From Prevotella sp. (lineage in GTDB: Bacteria > Bacteroidota > Bacteroidia > Bacteroidales > Dysgonomonadaceae), in contig JAITVV010000036.1 of assembly GCA_031285625.1 (NCBI GenBank), positions 22,079 to 86,078 on the forward strand: 64,000 nt of DNA. Reading direction: 5' to 3'. Positions 42,702-49,842 of this stretch are shown one piece after another; position 1 is the stretch's first letter, and each line of letters opens with the position of its first letter. The translations under genes were made by a program, and so were the position numbers. Under the pieces are notes generated by a model. That model was not told the DNA's origin and searched no databases. It worked only from the letters and a program-made list of their open reading frames with translations.

Positions 42702-43496
42702 TTAATAACTGATAATACTTCTCAGATTATCTGTAAGCAAATCATCTTTACCATTCTTTTTCAATTCATTTATCAATGGGCGTGAACGTTTGTCACTATA
42801 ATCAAGATTATGTATTTCGTATTTCTTGAGATTTTTCATTTGCATCAGGATATTTGCAAAGGCTTTTCCTGATACTTTGTCGCTACTTACACAAACATGA
42901 AGGTATTCGATAGAAGAATCTATTAGCGATTCTATATCATTAGTTTTATGCAACCCGTACATAAATAGTAACTTTAATTGGGGTAATTGTGAGAAGTCAG
43001 GTAAAGCTGGTAGTGAAAATTCACTCAGTATAAGATATTCTAGATTCGGGGCTTTATGTATAAAATTCAGATCTTCAACTTTTCTTAATTCGGAGAGATT
43101 AAGCGACTTGGTGCTGCCCGATAATAATTCACTAAAATTTTCGTTTGCCAGGCAACTTCTGACAGATAGTTTTTCGATAGGTATACCTTCAGGATGTGAA
43201 AACTCTACATTTTTAAAATCTGCAATAGTAAGCTCTTTCAACTTTTTTAAATTTGAAATAGAAGTCGCTTCTGTGAATTTTTGCAGTAGCCAAAGCTTTT
43301 CAACGTTCGGGAACTTTTTGAGTAAATGCATATCCGTTTTTACATGTGCATATAGAGAAAGATCATTGATATATTCAAATATAGGATATTCCTCAAAGCC
43401 CTGTTTCTTGTCAATAGCTAGTTCCAGTTTGGTAATCGTATTACGTTCCGATAAAGCTTTGATAGCATCGAGTGTATAAGTGCTTGTCTTTTTCAT
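42702..43496 (-). CDS. Leucine-rich repeat-like cytoplasmic protein
   Basis: 264-residue protein without signal peptide or membrane segment. It has irregular leucine-rich repeats of 20-25 residues (NVEKLWLL, KLKELTIADF, NLEYLILSEF, QLKLLFMYGL, SIEYLHVCV), suggesting an LRR solenoid used for protein binding. No enzymatic domain. It is downstream of rnfD on the same strand with a 35-bp gap, so it may be co-transcribed. Function unknown. Confidence 0.65.
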   Translation of the reverse strand: MKKTSTYTLDAIKALSERNTITKLELAIDKKQGFEEYPIFEYINDLSLYAHVKTDMHLLKKFPNVEKLWLLQKFTEATSISNLKKLKELTIADFKNVEFSHPEGIPIEKLSVRSCLANENFSELLSGSTKSLNLSELRKVEDLNFIHKAPNLEYLILSEFSLPALPDFSQLPQLKLLFMYGLHKTNDIESLIDSSIEYLHVCVSSDKVSGKAFANILMQMKNLKKYEIHNLDYSDKRSRPLINELKKNGKDDLLTDNLRSIISY

Positions 43497-43531: not shown

Positions 43532-44599
43532 CTATTCATTTCCTCTGGCTATAAATCTCACAATGCAATAAGCAATATAAATAAATACAAGATACATCAC
43601 CCATCCGGCATGGTGCAGGTAAATGATGGCGAATGTAGCCAACAGTATACACGCTGTAAGCGATAATCCCTGCCATAAACGGGTAAGTATATCTGGTTTT
43701 TTACCCCAGACCTTCGGACGGAATACCCAGTTGACAGGTATTACAAAAGCATTGAGCAGTAGTATGGAGTATGACATATATTCATACTTTACATCATTGA
43801 TAATGCAAACAATGGCCACAATTCCAATCATTGCCCCATAATACAGTTTTCCGTAATTGGTAGAGGCGCTGGTCGGCATATCCGTAGCCATAAAAATGGT
43901 TCCAAGGAGTAACCCTCCCAAAGAGAACTGTACTTTATAGTCTGTAAGATTAGAGAATATCAACAATAATATGGTGAATGCAACTAATAGGGCAAAAGGT
44001 ATATGCCATGATATTCTGCGCCTGATTATAAGGAATAAACCGCCAAGGATTAAAAAGAAAATAGAATATTCTCCTATTGCTCCGGATGCTTTATAGAATA
44101 ACTGGTTGATAAAGGTATCATTGAATATATTTATTTCACTGATATTAACAGCAGTCTTATCGTACCAAATGGTACGCGAAGCCATTACAGCCGGAAAGAA
44201 AACTGTCATAAACTCGCGCCCAACCAGAGCCGGGTTGAACATATTGCGTCCCAATCCACCCCATAAAAGCTTACCGAACAATACCGCCATACTTCCACCA
44301 AATGCAACCACGTAAAGAGGGGTAAATGGGGCGATAGTGAAAGCGAGCAGAATTCCCGAAATAATAGCCGAACCATCGGAAACAGATTCTGTGTTTCTTG
44401 AAAAGATTACAGAAAAGATAAATTCTGTGACCAATGCACTACCTACCGCTACCAGGATAACCATAACCGGAATAAAGCCGAATGCCAGATATGACATAAC
44501 AATGCAAGGTAGCAGAGCTAATATAACATCAGCCATTACCTGACTGGTACTATTATTCTTTCTTATAAAGGGAGCGAATATCGTTTTATCGGATTGCAT
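43532..44599 (-). CDS. rnfD: RnfD/NqrB-like membrane subunit
   Basis: 355-residue membrane protein with about nine helices, related to RnfD of the Rnf ferredoxin:NAD oxidoreductase. Family motifs: GRNMFNPALVGREFMTVFFP near 115, SGAIGEYSIFFLILGG near 172, and ATDMPTSASTNYGKLYYGAMIG near 237. The flavinylation motif S-G-A-T normally found between the first two was not seen; the segment is shorter (WYDKTAVNISEINIF). The start overlaps the hidden 3' part of rnfC by 14 bp, as expected for the intact operon. No rnfG, rnfE, rnfA or rnfB is nearby. Confidence 0.85.
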   Translation of the reverse strand: MQSDKTIFAPFIRKNNSTSQVMADVILALLPCIVMSYLAFGFIPVMVILVAVGSALVTEFIFSVIFSRNTESVSDGSAIISGILLAFTIAPFTPLYVVAFGGSMAVLFGKLLWGGLGRNMFNPALVGREFMTVFFPAVMASRTIWYDKTAVNISEINIFNDTFINQLFYKASGAIGEYSIFFLILGGLFLIIRRRISWHIPFALLVAFTILLLIFSNLTDYKVQFSLGGLLLGTIFMATDMPTSASTNYGKLYYGAMIGIVAIVCIINDVKYEYMSYSILLLNAFVIPVNWVFRPKVWGKKPDILTRLWQGLSLTACILLATFAIIYLHHAGWVMYLVFIYIAYCIVRFIARGNE

Positions 44600-44714
44600 T
44601 GGCCAGTTCTTTTAATTTTAGTTTCCCTTCTTTTATGCTCTCGATGAGGGGAACATTACTCGGACATATATATTCACAGGCTGCACATTCGATGCAACTG
44701 CTGATACTATATTT
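44586..44714 (-). pseudogene. Orphaned 3' part of rnfC behind an in-frame stop
   Basis: Directly after the rnfC TAA (44715-44717) the same frame continues for 42 codons to a second TAA at 44586-44588. It encodes KYSISSCIECAACEYICP, a perfect CxxCxxCxxxCP 4Fe-4S motif, and then PLIESIKEGKLKLKELANA, the usual RnfC C-terminal pattern. It overlaps the rnfD start, as a full-length gene would. It is either read by stop-codon readthrough, lost through a recent nonsense mutation (GAA to TAA would suffice), or a sequencing error. Confidence 0.85.
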
Positions 44715-45872
44715 TTACAGATTGAAATATTTACCTTTCCTGTAGTTTTCTTCAAATTTCATTGGCATCAGGTGCATAGGACATACATCTACACAGTATC
44801 CGCATGATATACAGTTACTACGTTTTATAGTTTCTTTTTTCAGGAATAGTACTCCGGCAGAACCCTTTGTGATTGGTACAGAAGGATCGTTAATCGCTTT
44901 TCCCATCATAGGGCCTCCCAGTACAACTCTGATATTATTGGAGTCCAGTCCGAGAGTTTTGGTAATATGTTCAATCGGTGTACCTATCTTTACTTCATAG
45001 TTTCCATAATGTGTAGCTTCCTCACCTGATATGGTAATGATACGACTTATCAGCGGTCTTCTGTTTTTGACAGCTTCGTAGATAGCATGTATTGTACCTA
45101 TATTGCTGACGATTATCCCGGCTTCGCGGGGACGCTGAAATCTTTGTAATTCGATACCTGTCACAGATTTGATTAATTGCAATTCTCCCCCTTGTGGGTA
45201 TTGATTAGGAAGAATAGCTATCCGTACGCTGCTGTATTCCAGTTGACTAAGGTAGGGTGCAAAGGCTTTCTGTAATTCTTTATTCTGTTCCTCTATGGAG
45301 ATAATAATATTTTCAGCATTCAGAATCCGGTTCACAAAGCCTATACCTTCAACGAGTTCCTGAGTGCGTTCGGCCATTAGTGCATAGTCAGAAGTTAAAT
45401 AGGGTTCACACTCTGTTCCATTCACAATGAATGTATCAATTTTATGTCCGTCGAGAGTATATTTTACTGCAGTTGGGAACTGAGCACCACCTTCGCCGAC
45501 GATACCGTCCATACGTATGATATTCAAGAGTTGTTCCGGGCTTAATGTATCTGTATTGAAATAAGGCCGTTTCTCTGTTGTTTCCTGAAAGTCATTCTGG
45601 ATAACAATACATGGGGTTGATGTCCCATCTGGAAACTCAACTTCCTTAATTTCCAGTACCTTCCCCGAAACTGGGGAGTGTACATTGGATGAAAGACCTT
45701 TCTCAGAAACTGCAATTTGCTGGTATTTGCAGACGGTATCCCCCGGTTTTACAGTCGGAGCAGGTATTTCACCCAAATATTGTGATATGGGAACGTAAAG
45801 AAAAGGGGCGTCTTCAATTGATTGAATGCTTTTCTTTTTAGTTTTTTCCTTCATGGAAAATATATGCATCAT
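44715..45872 (-). CDS. rnfC: RnfC-like electron transport subunit, interrupted by an in-frame stop
   Basis: 385 residues of an RnfC-like peripheral subunit that normally carries FMN/NADH-type and two 4Fe-4S sites. Visible: a lipoyl-like N-terminal region (VPISQYLGEIPAPTVKPGDTV and VHSPVSGKVLEI), the NuoF-like core GGAQFPTAVKY then IVNGTECEPYLTSDYALM near 155, GGPMMGKAI near 317, and the first 4Fe-4S motif CISCGYCVDVCP near 360. The usual TFxGGIHPP N-terminus is absent. The frame stops at TAA just before the second 4Fe-4S motif, which lies intact and in frame behind the stop; full length would be 428 residues. apbE ends 4 bp upstream. Confidence 0.85.
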   Translation of the reverse strand: MMHIFSMKEKTKKKSIQSIEDAPFLYVPISQYLGEIPAPTVKPGDTVCKYQQIAVSEKGLSSNVHSPVSGKVLEIKEVEFPDGTSTPCIVIQNDFQETTEKRPYFNTDTLSPEQLLNIIRMDGIVGEGGAQFPTAVKYTLDGHKIDTFIVNGTECEPYLTSDYALMAERTQELVEGIGFVNRILNAENIIISIEEQNKELQKAFAPYLSQLEYSSVRIAILPNQYPQGGELQLIKSVTGIELQRFQRPREAGIIVSNIGTIHAIYEAVKNRRPLISRIITISGEEATHYGNYEVKIGTPIEHITKTLGLDSNNIRVVLGGPMMGKAINDPSVPITKGSAGVLFLKKETIKRSNCISCGYCVDVCPMHLMPMKFEENYRKGKYFNL

Positions 45873-45876
45873 AGGC

Positions 45877-46791
45877 TTATTGTTTGATTTTGAAATCCTT
45901 TGTATATGTAATCCTATTTTCGCTATCTATTAAAAATCCTTTTATATTATAATCTTGTGACAACAATTCGACCTTTTCCAAAAATCTTTCAAGAGATTCA
46001 TTAAATAATGCAGTAGATATAATATCACCTGTCATGCAATTATCACTAATTATCCCTACCTGCTTATTTATGGATGGAAATCCTGTAATAGGGTTTAATA
46101 TATGACCGTATTCTTTCCCTTCTATATTTACATACGTTTTGGCTTGCGAAGAAGTGGAATAGGCTTGATTGGCAATATCCAATTTAAATAACAATTCCTC
46201 ATTCCGGGGATGCCTTACCATGACCTGCCACGAAGGGTGTGATTCATTGTTAATTGCTCTGATTGTACTTCCTCCTGCATTGATTATTGCATCTGTTATC
46301 CCTAATTCATTCAACTTATCTACCAGCTTGTCTACAGCATATGCTTTTATAAATGAGCCTGTAATAATTTCCTGTCCTTTTCCTATTTTTACCTGATTTC
46401 CTTTTATCTCAATATTCTTATAGTTGACCAGCTTTCTGGTTTCTTCTATATCCTTATTTGATGGTATTTGTTTTTGCTCATCTTTATAAAAACCCCATAA
46501 CCTGATAAGTGGCATAATGGTGATATCATAAGTTCCATCAAAAAAATCTGACAATCTGATTACTTCATTCAATAGATGGATAGTTTGATCATCAACCTTT
46601 ACAAAGCCTCCGCTTCCTTGATTAATAAGATCGATATAAGATCCGGACTTATATGAGTTGTATTTTTTATCAATGTCTTCGAGCACCGCAAACAGTTCAT
46701 CAAATATATCATCTTCATAGAAGGCTGATAATTTGATCTTTATATGCGCATGAAATAAAAATCTTGTTTGGGCCTTGTATATTAAGTCCAT
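45877..46791 (-). CDS. apbE: ApbE-like FAD:protein FMN transferase
   Basis: 304-residue flavin transferase that attaches FMN to a Thr of proteins such as RnfG, RnfD or NqrB/C. Motifs: YNSYKSGSYIDLIN, TYDITIMPLIRLWGF, a variant ITGSFIKAYAVDKL, NAGGSTIRA, HILNPITGFP near 234, and NCMTGDIISTALF near 250 with the metal-binding Asp. No signal peptide or lipobox is seen at the start chosen, unlike most ApbE proteins, so it may act inside the cell or be anchored through a partner. No obvious flavinylation target is seen in the cluster. Confidence 0.85.
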   Translation of the reverse strand: MDLIYKAQTRFLFHAHIKIKLSAFYEDDIFDELFAVLEDIDKKYNSYKSGSYIDLINQGSGGFVKVDDQTIHLLNEVIRLSDFFDGTYDITIMPLIRLWGFYKDEQKQIPSNKDIEETRKLVNYKNIEIKGNQVKIGKGQEIITGSFIKAYAVDKLVDKLNELGITDAIINAGGSTIRAINNESHPSWQVMVRHPRNEELLFKLDIANQAYSTSSQAKTYVNIEGKEYGHILNPITGFPSINKQVGIISDNCMTGDIISTALFNESLERFLEKVELLSQDYNIKGFLIDSENRITYTKDFKIKQ

Positions 46792-46802
46792 GACAACTAT
46801 TT

Positions 46803-47222
46803 TTATTCGGTTCCTGAAGATTCTTCCGGTGTTGCTTTTTCTATCACGGTTTGTTTTTCTTCTACTTTTACCGGTTCCTCCGCAGGTTTACTTTCTGCTT
46901 TCTTTTCCACTACAGGCACAGGCGTTTTAGATGTCTCTGCCGGAGTTTTTGGTTTAGGCTGAGGTGCAGCCTTTTTGTTATTGGTAGATTTGGGTGGTAC
47001 AACCTCTTTAGGCTCCACTTTTGAAGAATCTGCTTCTGTCGGATTCTCATTTATGGAAGGCGCGTTTACCGGTTGCTGTTCTATTTCTTTATTGTTGTTT
47101 TCTTTTTCTTCTTTGGCTTTTTCTTCAATGTTGGCTGCATTCACCTTATAGCCCCAAATAATTAACAAAATTCCAAATAAAAAAAGACCAACTTTCTTTA
47201 ATACCTGAATAATATTATTCAT
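46803..47222 (-). CDS. Membrane-anchored Pro/Lys/Glu-rich low-complexity protein
   Basis: 139 residues from the ATG at 47222 (MNNIIQVL). One N-terminal hydrophobic helix (VGLFLFGILLIIWGYKVNAA), then a disordered tail rich in Pro, Lys, Glu, Val and Thr up to the stop. It resembles the proline-rich spacer of TonB-like proteins but has no C-terminal domain. It is the first gene of the apbE-rnfC-rnfD unit; the gap to apbE is 11 bp. Function unknown. Confidence 0.6.
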   Translation of the reverse strand: MNNIIQVLKKVGLFLFGILLIIWGYKVNAANIEEKAKEEKENNNKEIEQQPVNAPSINENPTEADSSKVEPKEVVPPKSTNNKKAAPQPKPKTPAETSKTPVPVVEKKAESKPAEEPVKVEEKQTVIEKATPEESSGTE

Positions 47223-47246
47223 ATCTTTAATAGATTGTAACGAATA

Positions 47247-47254
47247 CAAATGTA
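47247..47254 (-). promoter_or_regulatory. -7 box of the Rnf-like cluster
   Basis: On the minus strand TACATTTG fits the -7 consensus 24 nt before the ATG at 47222. No -33 box at the expected spacing. Confidence 0.5.
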
Positions 47255-47967: not shown

Positions 47968-49842
47968 ATGTTCATGAAAACCAATTTCAGCTTCCTTTTT
48001 TTATTTTCTTTCCTTTTATTTTATGGATGTGCACAAGTTGATGCTCCGAAACCTTATGGTGTAATACCTTCTACAGATCAGGTAAACTGGCAGCAGATGG
48101 AATATTATATGTTTGTACACTTCGGTCCTAATACATTTACTAATGTGGAATGGGGAGATGGAAAGGAGGATCCGAAAGTATTTAATCCTACAGATGTGGA
48201 TTGCCGTCAGTGGGCAGCTACAGCCAAGGCTGCGGGGATGAAGGGAATCATAATCACAGCAAAGCATCACGATGGTTTTTGTTTGTGGCCGAGCAAATAC
48301 AGTACACATACTGTAAGGGAAAGCTTGTGGAAAGATGGCAAAGGAGATATACTTAAAGAATTGTCAGAAGCCTGTCGTGAATACGGATTGAAGTTTGGGG
48401 TCTATCTTTCCCCATGGGATCAGAACCATCCGCAATATGGAACTCCTGAATATAATCAGGTATTTTCAAATACATTAGATGAGGTACTTTCCGGATACGG
48501 AGAAGTATTTGAACAGTGGTTTGACGGAGCAAACGGAGAAGGTAAAGATGGTAAAAAGCAAGTTTATGATTGGGATTTGTTTCATAATACAGTATACAGG
48601 AATCAACCTCATGCTATAATCTTTAGTGATGTTGGCCCTGGTTGCCGATGGATGGGTAATGAGCGTGGTGTTGCCGGAGAAACAAACTGGTCGACACTAA
48701 ATATAAAAGGTTTTGGCCCGGGACATGATGCCCCTCCGGTTGAGGTTTTAAATGCAGGTGTACAAGGTGGTGAGGCGTGGGTTCCTGCCGAAACGGATGT
48801 TTCTATCCGTCCGGGATGGTTTTACAGTCCTGCTACAGATGATAAAGTAAAGTCAGTGGATAAATTGATGGATATTTATTATACTTCTATTGGACGTAAC
48901 TCAAATTTGTTATTGAATGTACCTCCTGACCGCAGAGGACGGATTCATCCAACTGATTCTACCCGCCTGATGGAATTCCGGAAAGCTGTTGATGAATCTT
49001 TTGCAAATGACCTGATTGATGGTGCAAACATAACTGCAAGCAATATAAGGGGCAATTCAACAAAATTCTCAGAAGCAAATTTACTGGATGATAATTACGA
49101 TACATATTGGACAACAGAAGATAATGATTTAACTCCTTCTCTAGAAATAGATTTGAAACAGAAGCAGAATTTTAACAGATTGCTCTTACAGGAATATATT
49201 CCTCTGGGGCAACGAGTTTCTTCATTTGAAGTGAAATATTGGGATGATACCAAAAATGATTGGGCTGATCTGACAAAAGCAACAACTATAGGTTATAAGC
49301 GTATACTGCGCTTCCCAACAATATCTACACAGAAACTTAAAGTTAGCTTTACAGGATTAGCTTGTCCGGTAATCAGTAAAGTCAGTATTTATAATGCTCC
49401 GGAGCAATTCTCAGGGGTAGAAAGTGCAAATACAGACCTTAAATTCATAAATTCATCTAAGTGGAAACTTATTTCACCAACGGCGGATTTATCAAAGATT
49501 ACAGATAATGATAATACTACATATCTGGAGATAGATAAAAATATACCGTTAGTGGTAGATATGGGAGAAGTGTTTAAGGTGAAAGGTTTTTCGTATGTTC
49601 CTCTTAACAAAGTGCAATCTTCAAACATCTTAAGATATAATATATATGTAAGTGAAAATGGTAAAGACTGGAAACAAGTGAAGAATAATGCAATATTTAA
49701 TAATATCGCCAATAATCCGGTTGTGCAGGATATTACTTTATTTGCGGATAATCCCGAGAGCGTACGTTATTTAAAATTAGAACCGATAGAGATTGCCGAT
49801 TCAGGAAACAAATATTTTGTAGCAGGAATAAAAGTCTTTTAA
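47968..49842 (+). CDS. GH29 alpha-L-fucosidase with discoidin-like domains, lipoprotein
   Basis: 624-residue lipoprotein (lipid Cys about 21, FYGC) that should release L-fucose from host or plant glycans at the periplasm or surface. Catalytic domain about 30-345: YYMFVHFGPNTFTN, KHHDGFCLW, and the nucleophile Asp186 in QWFDGANGEG; a Lys/Asn-rich GRNSNLLLNVPPDRRGRI follows. Then an F5/8 type C-like region (about 350-470, SNIRGNSTKFSEANLLDD) and a second one (about 500-620). The acid/base residue was not located by eye. The start may be 47968 or the ATG at 47974. Confidence 0.9.
   Translation: MFMKTNFSFLFLFSFLLFYGCAQVDAPKPYGVIPSTDQVNWQQMEYYMFVHFGPNTFTNVEWGDGKEDPKVFNPTDVDCRQWAATAKAAGMKGIIITAKHHDGFCLWPSKYSTHTVRESLWKDGKGDILKELSEACREYGLKFGVYLSPWDQNHPQYGTPEYNQVFSNTLDEVLSGYGEVFEQWFDGANGEGKDGKKQVYDWDLFHNTVYRNQPHAIIFSDVGPGCRWMGNERGVAGETNWSTLNIKGFGPGHDAPPVEVLNAGVQGGEAWVPAETDVSIRPGWFYSPATDDKVKSVDKLMDIYYTSIGRNSNLLLNVPPDRRGRIHPTDSTRLMEFRKAVDESFANDLIDGANITASNIRGNSTKFSEANLLDDNYDTYWTTEDNDLTPSLEIDLKQKQNFNRLLLQEYIPLGQRVSSFEVKYWDDTKNDWADLTKATTIGYKRILRFPTISTQKLKVSFTGLACPVISKVSIYNAPEQFSGVESANTDLKFINSSKWKLISPTADLSKITDNDNTTYLEIDKNIPLVVDMGEVFKVKGFSYVPLNKVQSSNILRYNIYVSENGKDWKQVKNNAIFNNIANNPVVQDITLFADNPESVRYLKLEPIEIADSGNKYFVAGIKVF

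Follow-up and report, generated by a model that had tools for sequence, protein, structure and literature searches.

Introduction

In solved structures of the Rnf complex (RnfABCDGE), the C-terminal domain of RnfC holds two [4Fe-4S] clusters on the path from the RnfC FMN to the RnfD riboflavin, according to the excerpts of the structural papers cited here (PMC9588780, PMC12174285). For surveying this complex and its reduced relatives across genomes, the method text cited from Meheust et al. 2021 (PMC8238504) required RnfB before an RNF cluster was called, and a fused NqrB/NqrF-like protein before an Nqr/Rnf-like cluster was called. For the flavin transferase ApbE, the target is given as D-x-x-[ST]-G-A-[ST] in the part of the ApbE review cited here, which also describes cytosolic ApbEs (PMC12052999). 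According to the excerpt cited from a 2014 paper, NQR goes back to an rnf operon that was duplicated and lost rnfB, which provides a precedent for losing Rnf parts (PMC4014512).

Here we describe an rnfC gene and its surroundings in a draft Dysgonomonas genome, within a window of 64,000 nucleotides (the whole stretch of DNA analysed). From the sequence evidence, we consider it likely that a nonsense substitution of one nucleotide recently cut short the only strong RnfC match that this genome has. The gene belongs to a four-gene unit that carries RnfC and RnfD without the other Rnf subunits, which goes beyond what the preliminary description of this DNA had described. Among the literature matches listed, no title or abstract opening names such a unit or an rnf nonsense mutation.

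An interrupted rnfC frame

The unit occupies positions 43532-47249 of the window and encodes a small linker protein, ApbE, RnfC and RnfD. Its features, in order of transcription, are as follows.

46803..47249, minus strand: small linker protein, encoded first in the unit; hydrophobic segment at the N-terminus, variable linker rich in Pro, Lys and Glu, conserved C-terminus EESSGTE
45877..46791, minus strand: apbE-like flavin transferase gene; no signal peptide evident by eye
44715..45872, minus strand: truncated rnfC; RnfC_N, NuoF-like FMN domain, and the first of the two 4Fe-4S motifs (CISCGYCVDVCP), ending at the premature TAA
44715..44717, minus strand: premature in-frame TAA, codon 386 of rnfC; Glu there in 15 of 17 aligned relatives
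44586..44714, minus strand: rnfC remainder behind the stop; 42 sense codons, which encode the second 4Fe-4S motif CIECAACEYICP, and the original stop
43532..44599, minus strand: rnfD (PF03116); its start codon lies within the rnfC tail; no [S/T]-x-A-T flavinylation site, unlike ordinary RnfD

The preliminary description had reported an rnfC frame that ends in TAA at 44715, yet runs on for 42 codons with a second 4Fe-4S motif and a typical RnfC C-terminus until it overlaps the start of rnfD, and all of this holds. The coding part, from 45872 to 44718, gives a product of 385 residues that scores 389 bits against TIGR01945 (curated cut-off 246; profile positions 9-393 of 435), and the Pfam domains found in it include RnfC_N and the NuoF-like FMN domain. 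Behind the TAA the frame translates as KYSISSCIECAACEYICPSNVPLIESIKEGKLKLKELANAIR, which includes CIECAACEYICPSNVPLIESIK, and closes at the original TAA at 44586-44588. Unbroken, the frame overlaps rnfD (ATG at 44599) by 14 nt; the stop now in use lies 115 nt from the rnfD start. With the premature stop written as X, phmmer aligns the frame to residues 16-430 of 435 of the solved RnfC 7zc6, tail included, and the tail is identical in 41 of 42 residues to that of Dysgonomonas sp. 521, a same-genus neighbour at 88% identity. To judge from these alignments, the tail is the homologous C-terminus of the relatives' RnfC and not a chance open frame.

Of the two CxxCxxCxxxCP motifs that mark the C-terminal ferredoxin domain of RnfC, the first stands before the stop and the second behind it, and the truncated product retains 4 of the domain's 8 cysteines. 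Separate translation of the tail is ruled out, as the tail holds no in-frame ATG, GTG or TTG. We also rejected an intact second rnfC elsewhere, as the search of the draft genome returned a single RnfC match at E<=0.001.

Relatives at the stop position and the age of the stop

Comparisons of rnfC took in genomes of the genus, the family and the order. When RnfC was aligned across close relatives, as the preliminary description had proposed, the 15 sequences with Glu (codon GAA or GAG) also had an open tail, and none of the 17 ended naturally at this residue. The remaining two are L053, a more distant RnfC with Ala at the position, and L052 (D. capnocytophagoides DSM 22835), in which rnfC is frameshifted upstream and Glu stands at the position in the shifted frame. 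The frameshift in the latter gene (L052 10001-11265) lies near residue 297 and is independent of the window's stop; L052, L115 and G065 seem to be one record, and in the family search G065, seemingly D. capnocytophagoides, gives its RnfC match in two pieces. Across that search RnfC was matched at E<=1e-40 in 76 of 101 genomes, and a stop falls inside the match only in the genome studied here. An in-frame stop absent from orthologues, followed by a homologous remainder that is still in frame, is what characterises a nonsense pseudogene, and both were found.

Nucleotide changes separating this genome from sp. 521 were polarised with five close relatives. Within the 42 codons of the tail, 11 synonymous and no amino-acid changes fall on the lineage studied here, and 9 synonymous changes and 1 amino-acid change on that of sp. 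521, with 1 change unresolved, bearing out the earlier suggestion that the tail was under selection until recently. On its own side, the rnfC body carries 76 synonymous and 36 amino-acid changes; the counts for sp. 521 are 68 and 36, and 30 changes could not be assigned. The stop can be dated only roughly, because synonymous sites are saturated: the NG86 dS of the body is 2.15, and that of the tail is not computable. If half of this dS is taken, the time without constraint is bounded at 2.7% (about 3%) of the branch, a figure that a smaller dS would lift to several per cent. As a rough limit, the tail has been unconstrained for no more than a few per cent of the branch that leads from the sp. 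521 split, and freedom from constraint beyond about 3% of its own branch is unlikely.

Explanations for the interrupted frame

On the best explanation, rnfC has only just become a pseudogene or is present as a null allele that still segregates, and the mutation was probably very recent, lineage-specific and inactivating. A recent nonsense mutation was the first option named in the preliminary description, and it fits best: the relatives' frames read on through the position, and 39 other orthologues on the same contig are uninterrupted. Against it stands the fact that the stop comes from one assembly of one strain, in which a single consensus error would look alike. Both rnfD and apbE are open and look constrained, which speaks against a pseudogene, although it carries little weight for so recent an event.

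Such an error of sequencing or assembly, with a sense codon really present at 44715-44717 and RnfC made at full length, is the main rival. The near-perfect tail is exactly what it predicts, neither the tail nor the rest of the unit shows any sign of decay, and the genome is a draft of 96 contigs (94.25% complete, 3.85% contaminated). However, the difference from the relatives is a substitution and not an indel, and rnfC is the only one of 40 testable orthologues on the 86-kb contig that is interrupted here when compared with its counterpart contig in sp. 521 (this counts ORFs of 100 codons or more with identity of 60% or more and coverage of 70% or more, so that large deletions would escape). 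The 39 uninterrupted genes indicate that the contig is not error-ridden; the reverse comparison found 2 of 40 orthologues interrupted in sp. 521. We regard an error as improbable, if still a contender to be taken seriously.

Two further alternatives are unlikely. Programmed or leaky readthrough of the stop, another option of the preliminary description, would yield some full-length RnfC, in keeping with the open and conserved tail, but it has gained no positive support and we hold it to be very improbable. The family search shows a stop inside the RnfC match in this genome alone, so no readthrough signal kept by selection is seen, and among ORFs of 150 codons or more in the window (not curated) TAA terminates 41 of 56, so a general ochre suppressor would be costly. 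Scarcely credible, too, is a functional short RnfC shifted toward an NqrA-like subunit without clusters: NqrA, a relative of RnfC, is described as free of cofactors in the excerpt cited (PMC12174285), so the fold can serve without clusters, but the first four-cysteine motif is untouched, the tail that a long-lived short form would have let drift shows no decay, and amino-acid changes in the body are equal on both sides (36 here, 36 in sp. 521).

Under the nonsense substitution that we prefer, a single base change would cut the second 4Fe-4S motif off RnfC, and the 385-residue protein, with four of the eight ferredoxin-domain cysteines missing, would be unable to build the two-cluster wire from the RnfC FMN to the RnfD riboflavin. 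Ferredoxin folds with two clusters usually have the fourth cysteine of each cluster supplied by the opposite motif, so both RnfC clusters are probably lost. Translation of rnfD would be reduced through lost coupling with rnfC, and RnfD is probably made in smaller amounts, because ribosomes would stop short of its start codon instead of overlapping it. As no other RnfC turned up in the draft genome, this strain would amount to a naturally occurring loss mutant for the unit.

A four-gene unit around rnfC

By tblastn, all four genes are present at 19 of 19 relatives' loci with unit-type rnfC, of which 18 come from the family and one from Parabacteroides sp. Marseille-P3160, the small-gene matches being weak in several (E of 0.001 in L042, about 1e-5 in L112 and L113). 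Unit loci in relatives are L034, L035, L038, L040-L052 and L109-L115. Tests of 7 ordinary rnf loci found no small gene and no unit-type apbE. The small linker protein has no Pfam match; its C-terminus, E-x-[AS]-[STA]-[GA]-[TS]-x, is conserved in 20 of 20 sequences (in L045 behind a frameshift) and only loosely resembles D-x-x-[ST]-G-A-[ST]. Unit-type RnfD lacks [S/T]-x-A-T in the aligned stretch in 20 of 20 cases (this genome and the 19 others); at this site the 7 ordinary RnfD proteins have SSAT (4), TSAT (1), TGAT (1) and SGPT (1). Profile libraries give the unit genes the names rnfC and rnfD, the latter just below its cut-off, so metabolic models could wrongly credit these genomes with Rnf.

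At the other end of the unit, a gene at 42702-43496 with a weak leucine-rich-repeat match lies between rnfD and the next gene, which we take to be nuoN-like; in D. mossii (L044) rnfD and the nuoN-like gene directly adjoin.

Unit-type rnfC, set apart by at least 47% identity from the other 57 family matches (34-41%), occurs in 19 of 101 family genomes, and its presence is patchy within the genus (10 of 25 genomes). An unrooted RnfC tree of 49 sequences (50 less one duplicate), for which the program warned of long branches and in which L097 is only the first piece of a frameshifted gene, has the 20 unit-type sequences as one whole side of a branch with support 100/99. Unit-type RnfD was found at E<=1e-55 in five genomes of an order-wide sample of 393, this one included. 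G221, from another family of the order, has a unit-type rnfC-rnfD pair (L132 4026-6390) with no small gene or apbE beside it, and carries RnfB elsewhere in its genome.

Searches of the genome studied here returned no RnfA/E-type (PF02508), RnfG-type or RnfB-type match. PF02508 was likewise not matched in 16 of the 19 family genomes with unit-type rnfC. Matches are present in G064, G067 and G068; NCBIfam profiles, applied to G064 alone among these three, identify its matches as NqrD and NqrE within an NQR operon, and the genes in G067 agree with that operon in order and length. A search for RnfB (PF04060) that covered 16 of the 19 genomes with unit-type rnfC found it in none of them, against 2 of 2 searched family genomes of ordinary type, and a search for FMN_bind (RnfG, PF04205) that covered 12 of the 19, with G064, G067 and G068 outside this set, found it in none of the 12, against 4 of 4 searched ordinary-type genomes. 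Several unit-type genomes are incomplete drafts (G009 at 55%, G068 at 62%), so little can be read from any one absence in them; the G003 and G029 genomes each consist of one contig.

Repeated breakage as a sign of relaxed selection across the unit was also considered. Without a gene-by-gene survey, 3 breaks were noticed among about 80 genes of 20 units, namely the rnfC stop described here, the L052 rnfC frameshift and a frameshift in the small linker gene of L045 (8639-9039; Dysgonomonas sp. UBA7710 MAG), where both frames are recognisable, including the conserved C-terminus. Background breakage is 0 of 39 for the other genes on the contig studied here and 2 of 40 in sp. 521, so broken genes in the unit do not clearly exceed this background and its general decay is unsupported. 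An alpha-L-fucosidase gene that is intact in the window (47968-49842) is interrupted in sp. 521 (L043 6199-7860).

Discussion

With RnfA, RnfB, RnfE and RnfG absent and the flavin site of RnfD lost, the unit would hardly be an ordinary Rnf pump. A more specific proposal, which we offer as speculation and think improbable as a whole, is that it is a reduced, non-pumping relative of Rnf with the small protein as a flavinylated arm. RnfC would take electrons from NADH and RnfD would carry them across the membrane; the small anchored protein would replace RnfG as a flexible arm, and its conserved C-terminal Thr/Ser would be the site at which the neighbouring ApbE attaches FMN. The genome studied here would then have lost the conduit very recently, as a natural knockout. 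Several points speak against this proposal: the motif of the small protein is not the canonical ApbE target, the unit ApbE shows no signal peptide by eye, and in G221, which has RnfB, the small gene and apbE are missing beside the rnfC-rnfD pair.

A stop codon is in itself an everyday event, and its explanation here is ordinary. The unit is more unusual than the stop and the better lead, and it merits study in its own right, as a test case for how electrons from NADH might cross a membrane with a minimal set of parts.

The truncated rnfC shares with ordinary recent nonsense pseudogenes a single in-frame stop, an intact remainder and intact copies in relatives, and no qualitative difference from them was seen. 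Compared with RnfC of RnfABCDGE (TIGR01945; 7zc6, 8ahx, 9eri), it has the same domain order and near-whole-length homology, and its relatives have the same two C-terminal 4Fe-4S motifs; it differs in that its own second motif lies behind the stop and that its genome lacks RnfA/E-, RnfG- and RnfB-type matches. The two-subunit Nqr/Rnf-like systems, as portrayed in the excerpts cited (PMC8238504; mSystems 2024, PMC11334425), are likewise reduced: the flavinylation Thr is missing from their RnfD/NqrB-like membrane protein too, they include an NADH-side part, and apbE is encoded close by. In those systems, on the same excerpts, the membrane protein carries its NADH domain as a C-terminal NqrF-like fusion and is paired with an NqrC/RnfG-like protein, whereas the unit described here has a separate RnfC and a small linker protein, with no FMN_bind in the 12 genomes searched. 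Under the calling rules cited from Meheust et al. (PMC8238504), the unit would therefore fall outside both cluster classes.
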